Positions 3,918 to 45,284 of a stretch of 64,000 bases of DNA are shown here, in pieces. Source of the stretch: Halomonas huangheensis (GTDB taxonomy: Bacteria > Pseudomonadota > Gammaproteobacteria > Pseudomonadales > Halomonadaceae). Position numbers and translations under genes: made by a program. The notes beneath the pieces were generated by a model. It had not been told where the DNA came from, did not search any database, and saw nothing but the letters and a program-made list of their open reading frames with translations. The DNA lies in contig NZ_CP013106.1 of the NCBI RefSeq assembly GCF_001431725.1, forward strand, positions 992,001 to 1,056,000. Direction: 5' to 3'. Within the stretch, counting starts at the first letter, position 1, and the number at the start of each line of letters is the position of its first letter.

Positions 3918-4553
3918 ATGACATCGCAACGTACTAGAGACCGCATGGTGCAACGTCTTCATGAGCAGGGCATTGAAGACAGCCTGGTGCTGGACATCAT
4001 GGCCAGGGAACCACGTCACCTGTTTCTCGACGAGGCGCTATCGCATCGCGCCTACGAGGACACGGCACTGCCGATTGGTCATGCTCAGACGCTGTCGCAG
4101 CCATGGATCGTGGCGCGAATGAGCGAGCTGGTGCATGAACAGCAGCCGACCAGAGTACTGGAGATAGGCACTGGCTCAGGCTATCAGACGTTGATACTGG
4201 CCCGCATGGTCGAAGAGCTCTGGTCGGTGGAAAGAATCAATGCGCTGCATCGCCAGGCAGCGAAGCGCATGCGTCTGCTCAAGGCGCATAACGTGCGTCT
4301 ACGGTTGGCTGACGGTGGTCATGGGTGGCCGGAGGCAGCGCCTTTCGACGTTATTCTGTTGACGGCCTGCGCCAGTGAACTACCGGAGCCGCTGTTGTCG
4401 CAACTGGTCGAGGGCGGAGTACTGATTGCACCACTCGAAGCTCATGACGGCAGCCAATGGCTGACGCGTGTACGCCGCTGTGGCGAAAGCTATGAACATG
4501 AACGGCTGGAACCGGTCCGGTTCGTGCCGTTACTCGAAGGAGTTATTCGTTGA
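3918..4553 (+). CDS. pcm: Protein-L-isoaspartate O-methyltransferase
   Basis: Pcm uses SAM to start repair of isoaspartyl damage in ageing proteins. The 211-residue protein shows LPIGHAQTLSQPWIVARM (substrate/SAM region), LEIGTGSGYQT (SAM glycine loop) and FDVILLTACASELPEPLL. The frame is open further upstream to 3855, but the ATG at 3918 gives the family length and sits 16 bp after the surE stop, preceded by GTTGGG. Its TGA overlaps the next start codon. Confidence 0.94.
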   Translation: MTSQRTRDRMVQRLHEQGIEDSLVLDIMAREPRHLFLDEALSHRAYEDTALPIGHAQTLSQPWIVARMSELVHEQQPTRVLEIGTGSGYQTLILARMVEELWSVERINALHRQAAKRMRLLKAHNVRLRLADGGHGWPEAAPFDVILLTACASELPEPLLSQLVEGGVLIAPLEAHDGSQWLTRVRRCGESYEHERLEPVRFVPLLEGVIR

Positions 4554-39214: not shown

Positions 39215-39231
39215 TTTCGGGCACCAACTGA
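39198..39231 (+). repeat. Exact 17-bp tandem duplication at the DUF945 stop codon
   Basis: TTTCGGGCACCAACTGA occurs twice in direct succession (39198-39214 and 39215-39231). The first copy contains the stop codon; the second is non-coding. Confidence 0.95.
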
Positions 39232-39317
39232 CACTGCAATCCATAGGCCCTTCGCGGTAACCAACTCGGCTCTTCTTGTCGAGCTTTCCTGATAAACAGT
39301 GCTGCAGCAATCGATAC

Positions 39318-39347
39318 TTCAGAGTGGCGTTCAGCCATGATTCAGGT
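39318..39347 (+). promoter_or_regulatory. TTCAG direct-repeat box upstream of the cupredoxin gene
   Basis: TTCAG occurs at 39318, 39330 and 39341 (spacing 12 and 11 bp). The last two form TTCAG-N6-TTCAG and end 48 bp before the chosen start. TACAAG, a weak -10-like hexamer, lies nine bases further on. The same element precedes two other genes of this locus. Confidence 0.65.
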
Positions 39348-39395
39348 TGATGGGGTACAAGAGAGTCTCTTCACTGCACCATGAAAGAGACTTCC

Positions 39396-39875
39396 ATGAT
39401 CATGCGCAAGACATTGCTGGCACTGACCCTCAGCTTGACCGCTGGAGTAGCAGTCGCTGCCGGAGAACACGGAGCAGGCCACGCTGCGGCAAGTGATGCT
39501 GATGTTGACCGCACCATTCGCTTCCAGGCGGGGGATATGTGGTTTGACCCCAGGCAGCTCGAGATTTCACCCGGTGAGACAATTCGCTTTGAAATCGCCA
39601 ATACCGGTAACCTCGAACATGAGTTCGTGATCGGGAATGTCAGCTCTCAGGCGGAGCATCGCAGTATGATGCGAGAAATGAGTGGTGGCCATGGTGGACA
39701 CGAAATGACCGAGTCCGGACATGGCGATGGCATGGCATCGGTCTCGATCATGCCGGGCGAGACAGCGCAACTGATCTGGACAGTGCCCGAGAATGCCGAC
39801 AATCTGCAGTATGCCTGCAATATTCCCGGGCACTATGAGGCGGGAATGTTCGGGGCTTTCGAACTGCAGAAGTGA
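39396..39875 (+). CDS. Periplasmic copper-binding cupredoxin (plastocyanin/azurin-like)
   Basis: A 159-residue protein with a Sec signal (MIMRKTLLALTLSLTAGVAVA). The cupredoxin fold carries a type-1 copper set: His75 (EHEFVIG), Cys141, His146 and Met151 (YACNIPGHYEAGMFG). A His/Met-rich loop (MMREMSGGHGGHEMTESGHG) can bind further copper. Such proteins shuttle or buffer copper in the periplasm. The ATG at 39396 follows AAAGAGA; an ATG at 39381 is in frame but lacks a site. It sits just upstream of the copper two-component genes and shares their probable box. Confidence 0.88.
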   Translation: MIMRKTLLALTLSLTAGVAVAAGEHGAGHAAASDADVDRTIRFQAGDMWFDPRQLEISPGETIRFEIANTGNLEHEFVIGNVSSQAEHRSMMREMSGGHGGHEMTESGHGDGMASVSIMPGETAQLIWTVPENADNLQYACNIPGHYEAGMFGAFELQK

Positions 39876-39914
39876 GTCTTGTGAAGCATTGCATAGACAT
39901 ACAAGCGGGCGCAC

Positions 39915-39956
39915 GAAACCAGCCATATGAAACCAGCCATATGGAACCAGGCACAT
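39915..39956 (+). repeat. 14-bp tandem repeat (x3) at the copR start
   Basis: Two identical units GAAACCAGCCATAT and a third variant GGAACCAGGCACAT run straight into the ATG of copR at 39955. Each unit boundary makes an ATG (39927, 39941, 39955); because 14 is not a multiple of three they lie in three different frames. Confidence 0.9.
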
Positions 39957-40620
39957 GAAACTGTTGCTCCTCGAAGATGATGACCTGCTTGCCGAGAGTT
40001 TGACTGACACTCTGAAGCATCACGGCTATCGCATCGACCTGGCCACTTCGTTGAAGATGGCTAAAGCTCTCATGGCGACAGAGCATTATGAGCTGGCGAT
40101 ACTCGATCTCGGGCTGCCGGATGGCTCGGGGTTGGATCTGCTCTCGCAATGGCGTCGGCAGGGCCAGGATCTTGCTGTGTTGATTCTGACTGCTCGAGAC
40201 ACCTGGGATGACAAGGTGATTGGTCTGGAGAAGGGAGCCGATGACTATCTGACCAAGCCTTTTCATGAAGCTGAGTTGGTGGCACGCATCAAGGCGCTGC
40301 TGCGTCGGCGTTCAGGAAACGTCACTCAGCAGCTTTCGCTCAATGGTGTCGCGCTGGATGAGGCGGGGCAGCGGATAAGTATTGATGGAGGGGCGTGGAT
40401 TGCGTTGACAGGTACGGAATTCCTGTTGCTGCGCTACTTCATGCACCACCCCAACCGTGTCCTGTCCAAGGATCACCTGCTCAACCAACTCTATGCGCTG
40501 GACCAGGATATTGCCGCGCCGAACCTGGTGGAAGTCTATATCGCTCGCCTACGGCGTCACCTCGGCAAGGCGATGATCGAGACCCGTCGGGGGCAGGGGT
40601 ATGTACTTGTTTCGCGTTGA
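39955..40620 (+). CDS. copR: OmpR-family response regulator, CopR-like
   Basis: A 221-residue regulator. The receiver has the acidic pair in LLLEDDDLL, the phospho-acceptor Asp51 (ILDLGLPDGSG) and Lys101 (YLTKPF). The C-terminal winged helix includes LTGTEFLLLRYFMHHPNRVLS-like sequence and ETRRGQGYVL. Position between a cupredoxin, its kinase and copAB argues for copper sensing. The start lacks a clear Shine-Dalgarno and lies at the third unit of a 14-bp repeat. It overlaps copS by 20 bp. Confidence 0.88.
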   Translation: MKLLLLEDDDLLAESLTDTLKHHGYRIDLATSLKMAKALMATEHYELAILDLGLPDGSGLDLLSQWRRQGQDLAVLILTARDTWDDKVIGLEKGADDYLTKPFHEAELVARIKALLRRRSGNVTQQLSLNGVALDEAGQRISIDGGAWIALTGTEFLLLRYFMHHPNRVLSKDHLLNQLYALDQDIAAPNLVEVYIARLRRHLGKAMIETRRGQGYVLVSR

Positions 40621-41935
40621 CCGGCGTAGTTTGCGTACTCGACTGCTGCTGGGGTTATCCGGCATCTCACTGCTGGTGGTGGGAGTGACCTGGATACTGC
40701 ATGGCATTCTGCTGGAGGATCTGGCACGAGACTTTCTCGGTGACCGCCTGCAACGAGAAGCAGACCATTCCATCGAAGTACTTGAGCAGCAATATGACAC
40801 GACAACCATCACGCCGTCGTCGTCCCAGCGTCGCTACCGAATCCTCCATCACCTTTATGTATTACGTGTTGGCGAGCAGATTTCGTCATCGGATGAGCAC
40901 TGGCGCGAGACCCTGGCGCCTCTCCTTGATCAACAAGGCGAGGAGTTGCTCGAGTTCAAGGAGGGGGATCAGCATCTGCTGATCTATCGACACCACTTTA
41001 CGCTGAATGGAGCAGCAGGCGTTCTGCTGATGGGGGAGGACTTCTCTCAGGTTGAAGCAGGCCTCGGGAGGCTGCACTGGTGGGTGGCTGGAATAGCCGC
41101 AGGGTTGCTGGTGTTGCTGATGGTACTGAATCTACTGGCGATCAATGGTGGTCTGATTCCACTGTCGCGAATCCGAGATGAGTTGGAGGAATTGCAGACG
41201 GGCAAGCGTGAGAGGTTGTCCACCGATGTACCGTCGGAGCTGGATCGCCTGGTGGCACAGCTCAATCACTTTCTGGATGAGATTGACCGTCGCCTGCAGC
41301 GCTCACGTGACTCGGTGGCCAACCTGTCTCATGCACTCAAGACACCATTGGCTGCGGTCACTCAGGTATTGAGAGGTGAGCGTCCCATTGATGCAGAACG
41401 TCGCCGCAAGTTGGTGCAGCGACTGGAAGATATTCACAGACAACTGGATGCCGAGCTGAGGCGTGCCCGGATCGCTGGCCCCAATGCAGGGCGCTTCAGT
41501 CACCTGCAGCGTGACAGTGTTCGTCTGATCGAGATGTTCCGGGGACTCTACCCCGAAAAGCAATTCAACCTGATGCTATCGGCAGAGGCGGAGCGCTCGG
41601 TGGCGATCGAATCGCAGGATTATTCCGAGATGCTTGGCATTGTGCTCGACAATGCGGGGAAGTGGGCCCGCCACGAGATACAGTGCCAGCTGACGGCGGA
41701 CGCACAGGTCAGCATCGTGGTCGAGGATGATGGTTCCGGTGTTGCCATTGATGACCTTCCGCGCCTCGGCCAGCGGGGGCTACGCCTGGATGAGCAGTAT
41801 CCCGGTTATGGGCTGGGACTGTCGATTCTGAGGCAGCTGGTGAAGCGCTACTCGGGGCAGCTCCGGTTTGATGCTTGCCCAGGCGGTGGCCTGCGTGTCG
41901 AGATCACTATTCCGCTCAAGGAAGGTTTTCATTGA
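40601..41935 (+). CDS. copS: Sensor histidine kinase, CopS-like
   Basis: A 444-residue membrane kinase. Helices at about 14-36 and 160-181 enclose a periplasmic sensor of about 120 residues with several His (HLYVLRV, HLLIYRHHF). A HAMP segment follows, then NLSHALKTPLAAV with the phospho-acceptor His244, and an ATPase domain with VLDNAGKWA, DDGSGV and GYGLGLSIL. GGGGCAGGGG precedes the ATG inside copR, so the pair is coupled. Copper as signal is inferred from context. Confidence 0.87.
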   Translation: MYLFRVDRRSLRTRLLLGLSGISLLVVGVTWILHGILLEDLARDFLGDRLQREADHSIEVLEQQYDTTTITPSSSQRRYRILHHLYVLRVGEQISSSDEHWRETLAPLLDQQGEELLEFKEGDQHLLIYRHHFTLNGAAGVLLMGEDFSQVEAGLGRLHWWVAGIAAGLLVLLMVLNLLAINGGLIPLSRIRDELEELQTGKRERLSTDVPSELDRLVAQLNHFLDEIDRRLQRSRDSVANLSHALKTPLAAVTQVLRGERPIDAERRRKLVQRLEDIHRQLDAELRRARIAGPNAGRFSHLQRDSVRLIEMFRGLYPEKQFNLMLSAEAERSVAIESQDYSEMLGIVLDNAGKWARHEIQCQLTADAQVSIVVEDDGSGVAIDDLPRLGQRGLRLDEQYPGYGLGLSILRQLVKRYSGQLRFDACPGGGLRVEITIPLKEGFH

Positions 41936-42010
41936 ACTCGTTCCTATCGACCCCGCTTTCACTGAATTGGTCTTCATTGGTCTCAAGCCGACGGCCTGGC
42001 GGTGCGCTCT

Positions 42011-42028
42011 TTCAGCTGTAATTCAGCT
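42011..42028 (+). promoter_or_regulatory. TTCAG direct-repeat box upstream of copA
   Basis: TTCAGCT-GTAA-TTCAGCT, an exact 7-bp direct repeat with 11-bp period, ends 44 bp before the copA ATG. CATCAT, nine bases further on, is a weak -10-like hexamer. It is the likely binding site for the CopR-like regulator encoded next door. Confidence 0.65.
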
Positions 42029-42072
42029 TCTCTCGTCATCATGGAGATATTGCAGATCGACGGGAGTCACGC

Positions 42073-43908
42073 ATGGCAAGTTCGAGAATCACCCCCCATT
42101 CACTGTCACGCCGTCAACTCTTGAAGGGCGGTGTGGCGTTGGGGTCGATGGCGGCACTGGTCCCGGCCTGGGCCTCTCCATGGGGGCAGAGTAATACCTA
42201 TGCCCAAGGTGTTGAGGAAGGCCCTGAGGTATCGCTGACCATTCGTCGCGAATCCATTCCCATCAACGGTCAGGCAGCCAATCCCATCAGCATCAACGGC
42301 TCCAGCCCTGGGCCGCTGGTCAGATTGCGTGAAGGTCAGGATGCGGTTCTGCGGGTGACCAATCTGCTCGACGAACCTACGTCCATTCACTGGCATGGTT
42401 TGATTCTTCCCCCGGAGATGGATGGGGTGCCGGGAGTGAGTTTTGCCGGCATCGAACCAGGAGAAACCTTCACCTATCGTTTCCCGATACGCCAGCATGG
42501 TACCTACTGGTATCACAGCCACTCCGGTCTCCAGGAGCAAGAGGGGCATGCAGGCCCGCTGATCATTGATGCCGCCGAGCCAGAGCCCTTCCGTTATGAC
42601 CGGGAACATGTCCTGTTATTGACCGACTGGACCTTCGAAGCGCCGATGACGGTGTTCCGTAATCTGAAAACTGCCGAAGGCTATTACAACTTCCAGGAGC
42701 GCACCGTCGCTGACTTCTTTGCCGATGTGCGTGACAAGGGCTTTGCCGCTACCGCTGAGATGCGTGGTATGTGGGCGAGAATGCGTATGAGCTCACGAGA
42801 TATCGCCGATGTCACCGGCAGTACCTATACCTATCTGATCAATGGGCACGCTCCGGAAGAGAACTGGACAGCACTCTTCAGGTCTGGTGAACGGGTGCGT
42901 CTGCGGGTGATCAACGGCTCGGCGATGTCCTACTTCGATATACGTATTCCCGGACTGACGATGACTGTAGTGGCGGCCGATGGCCAGCCGGTGCAACCGG
43001 TTCCTGTCGATGAGTTTCGCATTGGTGTGGCTGAAACCTATGACATTCTCGTCACGCCGGAAGATAACACCGCCTATCCCATCTTCGCCGAAAGCATGGA
43101 TCGCAGTGGCTATGCGCTAGCTACTCTGGCGCCTCGTGAAGGCATGCGTGTGGATGTTCCTTCCCGGCGCAGGATTGCGGATCGTGGCATGGAAGCTATG
43201 GGAGCGCACGACATGCAAGGAATGGAGGGTATGGCACATGCCAACATGCCGGAGATGGATGGCATGAATCATCCCTCCGAGCAGGAAATGGACCACTCGG
43301 CGATGCAGGAGATGGACCATTCCGGGATGCAGGAGATGGACGCTTCCGGAATGCAGGGCATGGATCACTCCGGGACGGGCGGCATGCCTGCCGAGCATGA
43401 GCGCATGAATGCCAATGGGATGCTGATGTCAGGGCAGGCCCAACCAGGGTCCCGTTATGATCAGGCTGGTATCGGAATCGACCCACTGGAGCGACGTGTA
43501 CTGGTCTATAGCGACCTCATGGCCCTGACGCCATGGCCGGATCGTCGTGAGCCAGGTCGTGAGTTGGAGCTGCACCTTACCGGCAATATGGAACGTTACA
43601 TGTGGTCCTTCGATGGCCGGAAGTTCAGTGAAGTGACTGGTCCCATTCACTTCGCCAGAGATGAGCGACTGCGTCTGATTCTGATCAACGACACCATGAT
43701 GGAACACCCCATTCACCTGCATGGCATGTGGATGGAGCTGGAAAATGGTCATGGAGAGCTGATTCCCCGCAAGCACACGCTCAATGTCAAACCCGGTGAA
43801 CGTGTTTCGGCACTGATCACCGCGGATGCCGAGGGCAGCTGGGCCTTCCATTGTCATCTGCTTTATCACATGGAAGCCGGCATGTTTCGCGTCGTCCAGG
43901 TCGCATGA
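42073..43908 (+). CDS. copA: Tat-exported multicopper oxidase CopA
   Basis: A 611-residue periplasmic copper-resistance oxidase. SRRQLLKGG with a hydrophobic stretch and ALVPAWAS is a twin-arginine signal. The three cupredoxin domains carry all copper ligands: H106-W-H108, H148-S-H150, H545-P-I-H548-L-H550 and H593-C-H595...H599...M604. Between domains 2 and 3, residues about 376-450 are very rich in Met and His, with four 8-residue repeats. PcoA/CopA relatives oxidise Cu(I) and bind extra copper there. GGGAG precedes the ATG. copB follows 10 bp later. Confidence 0.94.
   Translation: MASSRITPHSLSRRQLLKGGVALGSMAALVPAWASPWGQSNTYAQGVEEGPEVSLTIRRESIPINGQAANPISINGSSPGPLVRLREGQDAVLRVTNLLDEPTSIHWHGLILPPEMDGVPGVSFAGIEPGETFTYRFPIRQHGTYWYHSHSGLQEQEGHAGPLIIDAAEPEPFRYDREHVLLLTDWTFEAPMTVFRNLKTAEGYYNFQERTVADFFADVRDKGFAATAEMRGMWARMRMSSRDIADVTGSTYTYLINGHAPEENWTALFRSGERVRLRVINGSAMSYFDIRIPGLTMTVVAADGQPVQPVPVDEFRIGVAETYDILVTPEDNTAYPIFAESMDRSGYALATLAPREGMRVDVPSRRRIADRGMEAMGAHDMQGMEGMAHANMPEMDGMNHPSEQEMDHSAMQEMDHSGMQEMDASGMQGMDHSGTGGMPAEHERMNANGMLMSGQAQPGSRYDQAGIGIDPLERRVLVYSDLMALTPWPDRREPGRELELHLTGNMERYMWSFDGRKFSEVTGPIHFARDERLRLILINDTMMEHPIHLHGMWMELENGHGELIPRKHTLNVKPGERVSALITADAEGSWAFHCHLLYHMEAGMFRVVQVA
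43288..43383 (+). repeat. 24-bp tandem repeat (x4) in copA
   Basis: Four 24-bp units starting at 43288, 43312, 43336 and 43360 encode MDHSAMQE, MDHSGMQE, MDASGMQG and MDHSGTGG, a Met/His copper-binding block. The last unit has diverged. Confidence 0.9.
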
Positions 43909-43918
43909 GGGAGAAGAC

Positions 43919-44686
43919 ATGAACCGGAATATTCTCGGAGTGAGTGTTGGTACTGTGCTGGCGATGATGTCTTCTGTGACCCATGCAGCGGATGGCTATG
44001 ATGCGCCGGATCATTGGCCTTCCCCAATGATGGAGCACAACATGGGGATGGCATTGTTTGACCGGCTTGAGTACTCGGTCCCTGACAAAGGTAAGGAGGC
44101 TCTGGTCTGGGACTTCCAGGCCTGGTATGGCAGTGATGTCAATCGCCTGTATATCAAGTCAGAAGGAGAGAATGTCCAGGGAGATGGAGAAGATGCCGAG
44201 TTCGAATCACTGGAGCTACTCTACAGTCGCTTGATCGCAGATTTCTGGGAGCTTCAGGGCGGTGTGGGGTACCAGGGGGGCGTCTTTTCGGATGACCATG
44301 AAGAACGCACTTATGGTGTGATTGGTTTTCAGGGAACCATGCCTTATCGCATCGAGTTGGATAGCGCCCTGCAAATCAGTGACGATGGCGACGTTGCGTT
44401 GAGTCTGGAAGGCGAATACGACCTGCGCCTGACGCAGCGTGTCTATCTTCAGCCGCGCACTGAAATCGCTGTCGCTGCCAGTGAAGTCGAGGAGTTTGGT
44501 GTCGGCAAGGGCCTCAACAGTGTGCGAGTGGGCGCAAGATTGCGCTATGAAGTGACCCGGCGCTTCGCGCCCTATGTGGGAGCCTGGTGGGAAAAGCAGT
44601 ATGGAAACACTGCAGACTTCTCACGTGTCGCGGGTGATGCTACAGAAGATACTGGGGTAGTGGCTGGCGTGCGATTGATGTTTTGA
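43919..44686 (+). CDS. copB: Copper resistance outer-membrane protein CopB
   Basis: A 255-residue protein with a signal peptide (cut near VTHA) and a beta-barrel body typical of CopB/PcoB: DHWPSPMMEHNMGMALFDRLEY at the start, WYGSDVNRLYIKSEGE, and a C-terminal strand ending in Phe (GVRLMF). Unlike many CopB proteins it has no long Met-rich N-terminal repeat; the Met-rich block is in CopA here. GGGAGAAG precedes the ATG at 43919. An intrinsic terminator follows. Confidence 0.9.
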   Translation: MNRNILGVSVGTVLAMMSSVTHAADGYDAPDHWPSPMMEHNMGMALFDRLEYSVPDKGKEALVWDFQAWYGSDVNRLYIKSEGENVQGDGEDAEFESLELLYSRLIADFWELQGGVGYQGGVFSDDHEERTYGVIGFQGTMPYRIELDSALQISDDGDVALSLEGEYDLRLTQRVYLQPRTEIAVAASEVEEFGVGKGLNSVRVGARLRYEVTRRFAPYVGAWWEKQYGNTADFSRVAGDATEDTGVVAGVRLMF

Positions 44687-44755
44687 TCCAGTGTCCTGAA
44701 CTTATGCTTTTGAAATGTCTCCTATAAACCAGTATCTGCATTTATTGAAATATTG

Positions 44756-44781
44756 ACGCTACCTTCAAGGTGGCGTTTTTT
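44756..44781 (+). terminator. Intrinsic terminator of copAB
   Basis: ACGCTACC (44756-44763) pairs with GGTGGCGT (44769-44776), one T-G pair, five-base loop, and runs into six T (44776-44781). Confidence 0.85.
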
Positions 44782-44798
44782 ATTGATGGATGTGTGTT

Positions 44799-44816
44799 TT
44801 CAGCTCTGTTTCAGGT
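44799..44816 (+). promoter_or_regulatory. TTCAG direct-repeat box upstream of the small exported gene
   Basis: TTCAGCT-CTGT-TTCAGGT, 11-bp period, ends 45 bp before the ATG at 44862 and lies just after the copAB terminator. Same layout as the boxes before the cupredoxin and copA. Confidence 0.6.
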
Positions 44817-44861
44817 GGTGATATTACTCTGAAGATGTTACCCGTGAATAAGGAGCTTTTC

Positions 44862-45284
44862 ATGAATATGAAGACGGTTTTCAAGACCATGATTATCGCG
44901 ATATCCATGTCAATGGCAGCCTCGGTGTCGGCTAGTATGGGAGCAAGTGCAGGACAAGCTGAGAGGTTGGAGAGGGGGATTTCCAACACTCAGATACTCT
45001 CACTGAAAACGCCGAAACGTTACGAGTTGGAGGTCGATCGCTCGACAATGCTACGGCTGTCCAGTGAGCAGCCGGCAGGAGAGCCGAGTAATAGCAGTTT
45101 CATCAAGGCCACGTTATACGATGATAGCGGGCGCAGTATTGCGCAGTCATCGAGCTATCAAGGAGAGTTGTATCTTTCCCGTCAGCTGCAACCGGGAGCA
45201 TATGAGCTGGAAGTCTCCGGCTGGACTCCGGCAGGAAAGTCGGAAGGCTTGAGTAATCGATACGAACTACACGTCGATTATTGA
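44862..45284 (+). CDS. Small exported protein of unknown function in the copper locus
   Basis: A 140-residue protein. Residues 1-28 are a Sec signal (MKTVFKTMIIAISMSMAASVSA). The mature part, about 110 residues, has RYELEVDRSTMLRLS, TLYDDSGRSIAQSS, LQPGAYELEVSGW and YELHVDY, the alternating pattern of a small beta-sandwich and reminiscent of bacterial pre-peptidase C-terminal (PPC) domains. It has no Cys and only one His, so it is not an obvious copper binder. AAGGAG lies seven bases before the ATG. It has its own TTCAG box and a strong terminator, so it is probably a single-gene member of the copper regulon. The surrounding spacer is clearly AT-richer than its neighbours. Confidence 0.75.
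   Translation: MNMKTVFKTMIIAISMSMAASVSASMGASAGQAERLERGISNTQILSLKTPKRYELEVDRSTMLRLSSEQPAGEPSNSSFIKATLYDDSGRSIAQSSSYQGELYLSRQLQPGAYELEVSGWTPAGKSEGLSNRYELHVDY

Follow-up and report, generated by a model that had tools for sequence, protein, structure and literature searches.

What is the function of a direct repeat that occurs three times within a single copper locus, and which protein reads it? The question arises from the window, the whole stretch of 64,000 nucleotides analysed here from Halomonas huangheensis (contig NZ_CP013106.1, positions 992,001 to 1,056,000). A sequence-only reading of this DNA had pointed out the repeat TTCAG-N6-TTCAG, called the box in the following, upstream of a cupredoxin gene, of copA and of a small gene for an exported protein, and had proposed it as the site of the response regulator encoded at 39955. 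From our comparison with related genomes we conclude with high confidence that the box is the predicted operator of this regulator, a protein of the PmrA/BqsR type that would act as an activator of the copper locus. The locus comprises the following features:

39318..39322, + strand: additional TTCAG, 12 bp upstream of the first half-site of the cupI box, read from the sequence
39330..39345, + strand: TTCAG-N6-TTCAG box of cupI, from pattern scan and shuffles; conserved before cupI
39356..39361, + strand: predicted -10 hexamer of cupI, TACAAG, 10 nt after the box, placed by the conserved A
39396..39875, + strand: cupI, exported plastocyanin/azurin-type cupredoxin, CopI-like; Pfam Copper-bind above cut-off
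39955..40620, + strand: copper-locus response regulator, OmpR/PhoB family, PmrA/BqsR(CarR)-like; by Pfam, NCBIfam and identity to the CarR type
40601..41935, + strand: sensor histidine kinase, PhoQ/BqsS-like; by Pfam and NCBIfam; candidate copper ligands E53, H56, H83 and H84
42011..42026, + strand: TTCAG-N6-TTCAG box of copA, from pattern scan and shuffles; conserved before copA
42037..42042, + strand: predicted -10 hexamer of copA, CATCAT, placed by the conserved A
42073..43908, + strand: copA, periplasmic multicopper oxidase of the copper resistance type; TIGR01480 at 800 bits, cut-off 479
43919..44686, + strand: copB, copper resistance protein B; PF05275 at 241 bits
44799..44814, + strand: TTCAG-N6-TTCAG box of the small exported gene, from pattern scan and shuffles; boxes also before homologues
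44825..44830, + strand: predicted -10 hexamer of the small exported gene, TACTCT, placed by the conserved A
44862..45284, + strand: small exported protein of 140 amino acids, modelled as a PPC-like (pre-peptidase C-terminal) beta sandwich

Occurrence, conservation and promoter spacing of the box

The copies at 39330-39345, 42011-42026 and 44799-44814 on the + strand are the sole exact boxes in the window, and all three are located in the copper locus. Over 100 dinucleotide shuffles the mean was 0.16 boxes per window and none of the shuffles reached three, which agrees with the expectation of the sequence-only reading that such a repeat would rarely arise by chance in 64 kb. The distances given there from the end of the 7-bp unit to the start codon (48, 44 and 45 nt) were reproduced for the starts at 39396, 42073 and 44862, and so was the third TTCAG, which precedes the cupI box by 12 bp and lies 1 bp off the 11-bp phase. 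When one mismatch was tolerated, the scan of the window returned five matches with 4.1 expected. Matches of this kind are thus at background level, and only the exact form of the box is informative.

In the complete genome of 4.76 Mb, a genome-wide motif scan found the exact core 12 times, compared with four copies of the reversed control; with two mismatches the numbers were 179 and 61. A weight matrix was built from 96 sites of relatives and applied to the 14 matches with at most one mismatch among those listed from the genome scan and to one other. The boxes of cupI, copA and the small gene scored 30.7, 35.2 and 20.4, whereas the nine other exact cores of the genome ranged from -12.6 to 17.7. 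As judged from these scores, recognisable boxes mark only the copper locus in the H. huangheensis genome.

Conservation in relatives had been named as a way to check the box. A search of 58 genomes for the regulator led to 17 orthologous or near-orthologous loci, which were compared. An exact box was present in 16 of these 17 loci. In front of cupI it was exact in 14 of the 15 relative loci holding this gene and had one mismatch in the remaining one; directly upstream of copA it was exact in 13 of 14. The exception for copA is a locus from another family (L066), where the gene order is cupI-copA-copB and the box stands upstream of cupI. In L067 the regulator is present without copper genes, and the boxes there all carry one mismatch. 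Homologues of the small exported gene are preceded by an exact box in L061, L062, L099 and L101 and by a box with one mismatch in L195 and L197. A chance clustering of a short repeat could appeal to the nine additional exact cores elsewhere in the genome, but the shuffles, the conservation in 16 of 17 loci and the coupling to the -10 hexamer described below speak against it. Its probability is vanishingly small, and we regard it as ruled out by the shuffles and the conservation.

The coupling concerns an A located 27 positions from the first T of the box, corresponding to the second base of the -10 hexamer, which was found in all 40 distinct exact cores of L050-L066 and the window. In the alignment of these 40 boxes, the hexamer begins 10 nt downstream of the second half-site, and (C/G)TT is favoured right after this half-site. 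Across all loci fetched by the regulator, the A was present in 106 of 118 distinct exact cores; this count is restricted to regulator-fetched loci and replaces an earlier tally of 109/110 that included loci fetched by the box. With such a fixed spacing the box covers the place of the -35 hexamer, which is the usual layout of OmpR-family activators. An operator in place of the -35 and a fixed spacing to the -10 are the characteristics of a class II activator promoter, and on this basis we predict this promoter type for the boxes.

Some regulators of the OmpR family are repressors, and the sites could accordingly be read as operators at which the regulator blocks transcription. However, the box occupies the -35 place at a constant distance of 10 nt from the -10, and the related BqsR is described as activating from a layout of this kind (PMC4682146), so that we consider repression very unlikely.

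Linkage of the box to the regulator at 39955

Within the genus, 61 genomes were compared. The box together with the -10 pattern was found in 26 of 28 genomes bearing the regulator, but in only 6 of 33 genomes without it (Fisher p 2.6e-9), and the reversed control of this combined pattern was found in none of the 61. The two regulator-bearing genomes that were missed (G032 and G034) do contain the core box, but their -10 departs from the pattern. Of the 73 matches in regulator-bearing genomes, 52 have the regulator no more than 5 kb away, and 70 have it no more than 100 kb away. Box, -10 spacing, conservation and linkage to the regulator are thus seen directly in the genomes.

Several observations weigh against the assignment of the box to this regulator. 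First of all, copA and the regulator occur in the identical 28 of 61 genomes, so that presence alone, within the genus, cannot assign the box to the regulator over copA. Furthermore, six genomes of the genus have box matches without having the regulator, five of them with one other common arrangement. Of the 118 exact cores in regulator-fetched loci mentioned above, 12 have no A at the -10; these include sites downstream of copB in L205, L210 and L214 as well as five sites from four loci of Marinobacter or Alloalcanivorax, and some of the 12 may not be promoters. The box of the small gene is the weakest of the three in the window, with an equal-length score of 19.8 that falls below the 20.5 of a one-mismatch site elsewhere in the genome. 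Finally, specificity is much lower in the wider order: a match is present in 117 of the 293 genomes, whereas only 28 pass the cut-off for the regulator (E 1e-58), and the reversed control was matched in 21 of the 293 by our count of the table.

Since the genus alone cannot separate regulator and target, the wider order is helpful here. Order-wide, 28 regulator loci were parsed, whose regulators share 48-74% identity with that of the window, and 27 of them have a box with the -10 A, 19 of them in exact form and eight with one mismatch. In ten loci, belonging to two other families, the regulator gene itself has a box (in one case with a mismatch) 45-55 bp upstream. In the named Marinobacter and Alloalcanivorax genomes this box is arranged back to back with a box facing cupI-copA-copB. 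Copies of the regulator without an adjoining copA likewise keep a box just upstream (L063, L106).

A different OmpR-family regulator might read the box by cross-regulation, the neighbouring regulator having another target. The host genome does encode six further regulators with 40-44% identity to that of the window, and five other genomes of the genus have boxes of this form but lack the regulator; in the one that was examined, the boxes flank a different OmpR-family pair. This explanation is nevertheless quite unlikely, given that the box follows the local regulator (26/28 against 6/33 genomes) and closely precedes its gene in two other families. The proposal that the box is the site of the regulator at 39955 is therefore supported by the conservation of the promoters, the co-occurrence with the regulator, the boxes before the regulator gene and the fixed -10, and from these genomic patterns the box very probably binds this PmrA/BqsR-type regulator as an activator.

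The five genomes without the regulator (G007, G030, G064, G066 and G081) have their box upstream of the same exported protein of 493-500 amino acids, and four of them also have one before a kinase-like gene. Boxes of the same form and -10 spacing are located at 4048-4063 and 5448-5463 of L112, and also in L102, L117, L126 and L127. Their neighbours in L112 are a ferredoxin-type operon and an OmpR-family regulator other than that of the window; the L112 representative of the exported protein matched no Pfam family. The box of G002 has no obvious gene downstream.

Following relatives of known mechanism, tandem binding, activation and phosphorylation can be proposed for the locus. On sensing copper in the periplasm, the kinase encoded at 40601 would phosphorylate the regulator, of which two protomers would bind head to tail to the two TTCAG half-sites, 11 bp or about one helical turn apart. 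Bound 10 nt upstream of the -10 and over the place of the -35, the regulator would recruit RNA polymerase (class II activation) and turn on cupI, copA-copB and the small exported gene. Regulator and sensor are encoded downstream of cupI, and activation could in this way include a positive feedback.

Relationship to known tandem operators

The regulator of the window belongs to the OmpR/PhoB family, as both Response_reg and Trans_reg_C match above their cut-offs and D51 is invariant in 16 aligned sequences, that of the window included. Its recognition helix reads N190-L-V-E-V-Y195-I-A197-R198. With 149 bits to TIGR01387 (CusR/SilR/CopR) it stays under the cut-off of 279 and falls outside this subfamily. 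The best NCBIfam match is PmrA with 204 bits, again under the cut-off of that equivalog (330), and the best full-length PDB match is E. coli BasR with 91 of 219 alignment columns identical. The identity to a CarR-type regulator of Pseudomonas yangonensis amounts to 50% (105/212), and this homologue in turn matches the PDB CarR chains 8gc6 and 9yfa with 233 and 168 bits. BqsRS and CarRS are the same system, as stated in PMC12666569. Measured by pairwise identities rather than by a rooted tree, the kinship of the regulator is closer to the BqsR/CarR type than to PmrA.

For BqsR of P. aeruginosa, TTAAG(N)6TTAAG is reported as the binding sequence of an activator, with the downstream pentamer overlapping the -35 at the promoters studied (PMC4682146). 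The system of the window resembles it in regulator type, in the pentamer-N6-pentamer layout, in the predicted activation with the downstream half-site over the -35 and in having a putative metal sensor. It differs in that C instead of A is the third base of both half-sites and in that the locus is a copper locus; moreover, the sensor of the window has invariant histidines that are absent from most relatives, and it appears to lack the ExxE iron motif. The BqsR operator itself has no match in the window, even with one mismatch.

PmrA was described to bind CTTAAG-N5-XTTAAT, with 6-bp half-sites 5 bp apart and head to tail, and two residues including His195 were proposed as determinants of base specificity (PMC3973317). 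Tandem head-to-tail half-sites with an 11-bp period are shared by PmrA/BasR and the box, in contrast to the half-site base and the target genes; in the alignment of the helix, Y195, A197 and R198 of the window regulator take the places of H193, H195 and N196 of PmrA. A copper two-component regulator with a direct repeat of the TTCA type is also known from Synechocystis sp. PCC 6803, where CopR is reported to recognise TTCAT-N4-5-TTCAT (PMC4182526). This comparison concerns the operator and not the kinship of the proteins; the period is 9-10 instead of 11 and the half-site TTCAT instead of TTCAG.

The sequence-only reading had stated that the box differs from the inverted cop/cus boxes. CusR/CopR and AgrR of enterics, Pseudomonas and Cupriavidus exert copper or silver two-component control over similar genes, and two reports describe their boxes as palindromic, for instance ATTCATnnATGTAAT and ATKACA-N4-TGTMAT (PMC11195947, PMC7380067). 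Neither the AgrR-type nor the CusR-type pattern was matched with up to three mismatches in the three promoter intervals (39215-39395, 41936-42072 and 44687-44861), which confirms the difference; an inverted box as operator of these three promoters was set aside on the same scan.

Judged by its sequence, the box of the window is therefore a form of the established PmrA/BqsR tandem operator in which the third base is C rather than A, and does not stand alone. The tandem architecture is already known; new is the TTCAG variant together with its correlates in helix and sensor. A description of a TTCAG box or of a BqsR-type copper regulator was not recognised among the papers listed in literature searches aimed at them, in which subscription journals are thinly covered.

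Which residue of the regulator goes along with the changed base? Position 197 aligns with His195 of PmrA. Regulators with A, G, R or K at this position have TTCAG as the second half-site in 86 of 87 boxes, compared with TTAAG in 36 of 37 boxes of N197 regulators and in 9/9 boxes of T197 regulators (45 of 46 for N and T together). These numbers stem from a recount on loci fetched by the regulator alone, comprising 102 distinct regulators, 86 of them with a nearby box; 23 of the 125 loci gave no new parsed regulator, being duplicates or unmatched. The recount supersedes first counts of 108/109 and 36/37, which included box-fetched loci and missed Shewanella-type helices. When the helix was masked, a tree built from 93 regulators showed at least five switches of the base and at least three changes of N197, giving only one to three independent pairs. 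It would be unjustified to take the correlation as proven, as the counts refer to boxes and not to events and independent switches are few. That residue 197 tracks the half-site base is nevertheless a good hypothesis from these alignments. His at residue 195, the position of His193 in PmrA, was set aside as a determinant of the half-site base in favour of residue 197, since regulators with Y195 and N197 keep TTAAG; whether 195 is Tyr or His does not settle the base.

In relatives from Methylophaga, Methylotenera and Shewanella without nearby copper genes (L203, L207, L216, L234, L235 and others), boxes of the forms TTCAG-N6-TTAAG or TTAAG-N6-TTAAG were observed. They keep the -10 spacing and lie near the regulator.

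Sensor, signal and extent of the regulon

Is copper the signal of the system? In all 33 sensors whose fetched locus contains copA, positions 53, 83 and 84 are occupied by E53, H83 and H84, and 29 of them have H56; these sensors are close kin, and the Marinobacter type lies outside the sample. In 54 other sensors, position 83 is Gly in 44 cases and His in ten, all ten without copA in the fetched stretch. BqsS is reported to bind Fe2+ through the motif E45xxE48, in which E48 is critical (PMC12666569). Positions 52 and 55, matched by eye to these glutamates via Pseudomonas homologues in an alignment from which P. aeruginosa BqsS itself is absent, are R and D in the window; by the same alignment, position 52 is R or Q in 32 of the 33 copA-linked sensors, and position 55 is E in 7 of 33. 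This pattern suggests that a copper site may stand where BqsS has its iron site. From the genes under control and the conservation of the sensor, copper is likely the signal.

The box might also be the site of the regulator with a signal other than copper, e.g. silver or, as for BqsRS, ferrous iron, and the copper genes would then belong to a wider response to envelope stress. In favour of this, the regulator is of the BqsR/CarR type, and BqsS, the sensor of that system, is reported to bind Fe2+ (PMC12666569). Boxes of relatives are also found before lgt and, at 116-201 bp, before genes for DsbD-like, CcmF-like (by eye) and MerR-type proteins and others. Against this stand the core targets cupI, copA and copB, a box 271 bp before the annotated copC start on a Halomonas plasmid, the H83-H84 pair in 33/33 copA-linked sensors and the positions matched by eye to the glutamates of BqsS, which are mostly not Glu. 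We regard a signal other than copper as rather unlikely.

A tentative extension, which we hold to be possible without favouring it, is that both partners of a metal-sensing two-component lineage shared with the iron sensor system BqsRS were adapted jointly in marine Gammaproteobacteria. ExxE of the sensor would have become E-x-x-H with a His-His copper site; in the regulator, an exchange of Asn or Thr at 197 for Ala, Gly, Arg or Lys would have shifted TTAAG to TTCAG, resulting in an operator of its own, insulated from BqsR- and PmrA-type systems of the same cell. A group of close regulators with one helix residue and one operator base that seem to vary in concert might become a simple system for studying insulation in the OmpR family.

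These results provide a defined, testable operator for the copper genes of Halomonas and related bacteria, by which members of the regulon can be proposed from sequence. The first candidate in relatives is lgt: an exact box precedes an lgt-like gene downstream of copB by 50-107 bp in eight loci (L053, L054, L104, L107, L110, L111, L113 and L114). The assignment to prolipoprotein diacylglyceryl transferase is based on Pfam for the L054 protein only. The location of this box hints at a copper-induced Lgt. Less certain candidates are a DsbD-like gene, a MerR-type regulator and a DUF2933 gene, which, like a SHOCT-domain gene, follow a box at larger distances in relatives; some of these are just the nearest long open frame.

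On a plasmid of Halomonas sp. KO116 (L300) the order copC-copD-cupI-regulator-sensor-copA-copB is accompanied by four exact boxes and one with a mismatch, which demonstrates that the module can be plasmid-borne. On this plasmid a box was also observed before an APC-type permease. In five relatives (G006, G020, G031, G069 and G078), the copA match is split or contains a stop, which may reflect a frameshift, a variable central part or an error of assembly.

Among the six genes of the locus, only the small exported protein (44862-45284) matched no Pfam or NCBIfam family, whereas the other five did. The product of cupI reached 116 bits to the NCBIfam model CopI, under its cut-off of 280. Eight homologues of the small protein were found besides itself, with Halomonas, Billgrantia and Bisbaumannia among the sources. 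Its structure is modelled as a beta sandwich like that of pre-peptidase C-terminal domains, with a mean predicted local distance difference test (pLDDT) score of 69.6 and confidence in the core only; the best PDB match of the model is 5sv5 (E 1.1e-5). Convergent to the copper locus, frames on the - strand between 45352 and 47221 resemble, by eye only, a c-type cytochrome and a sugar-dehydrogenase-like protein.

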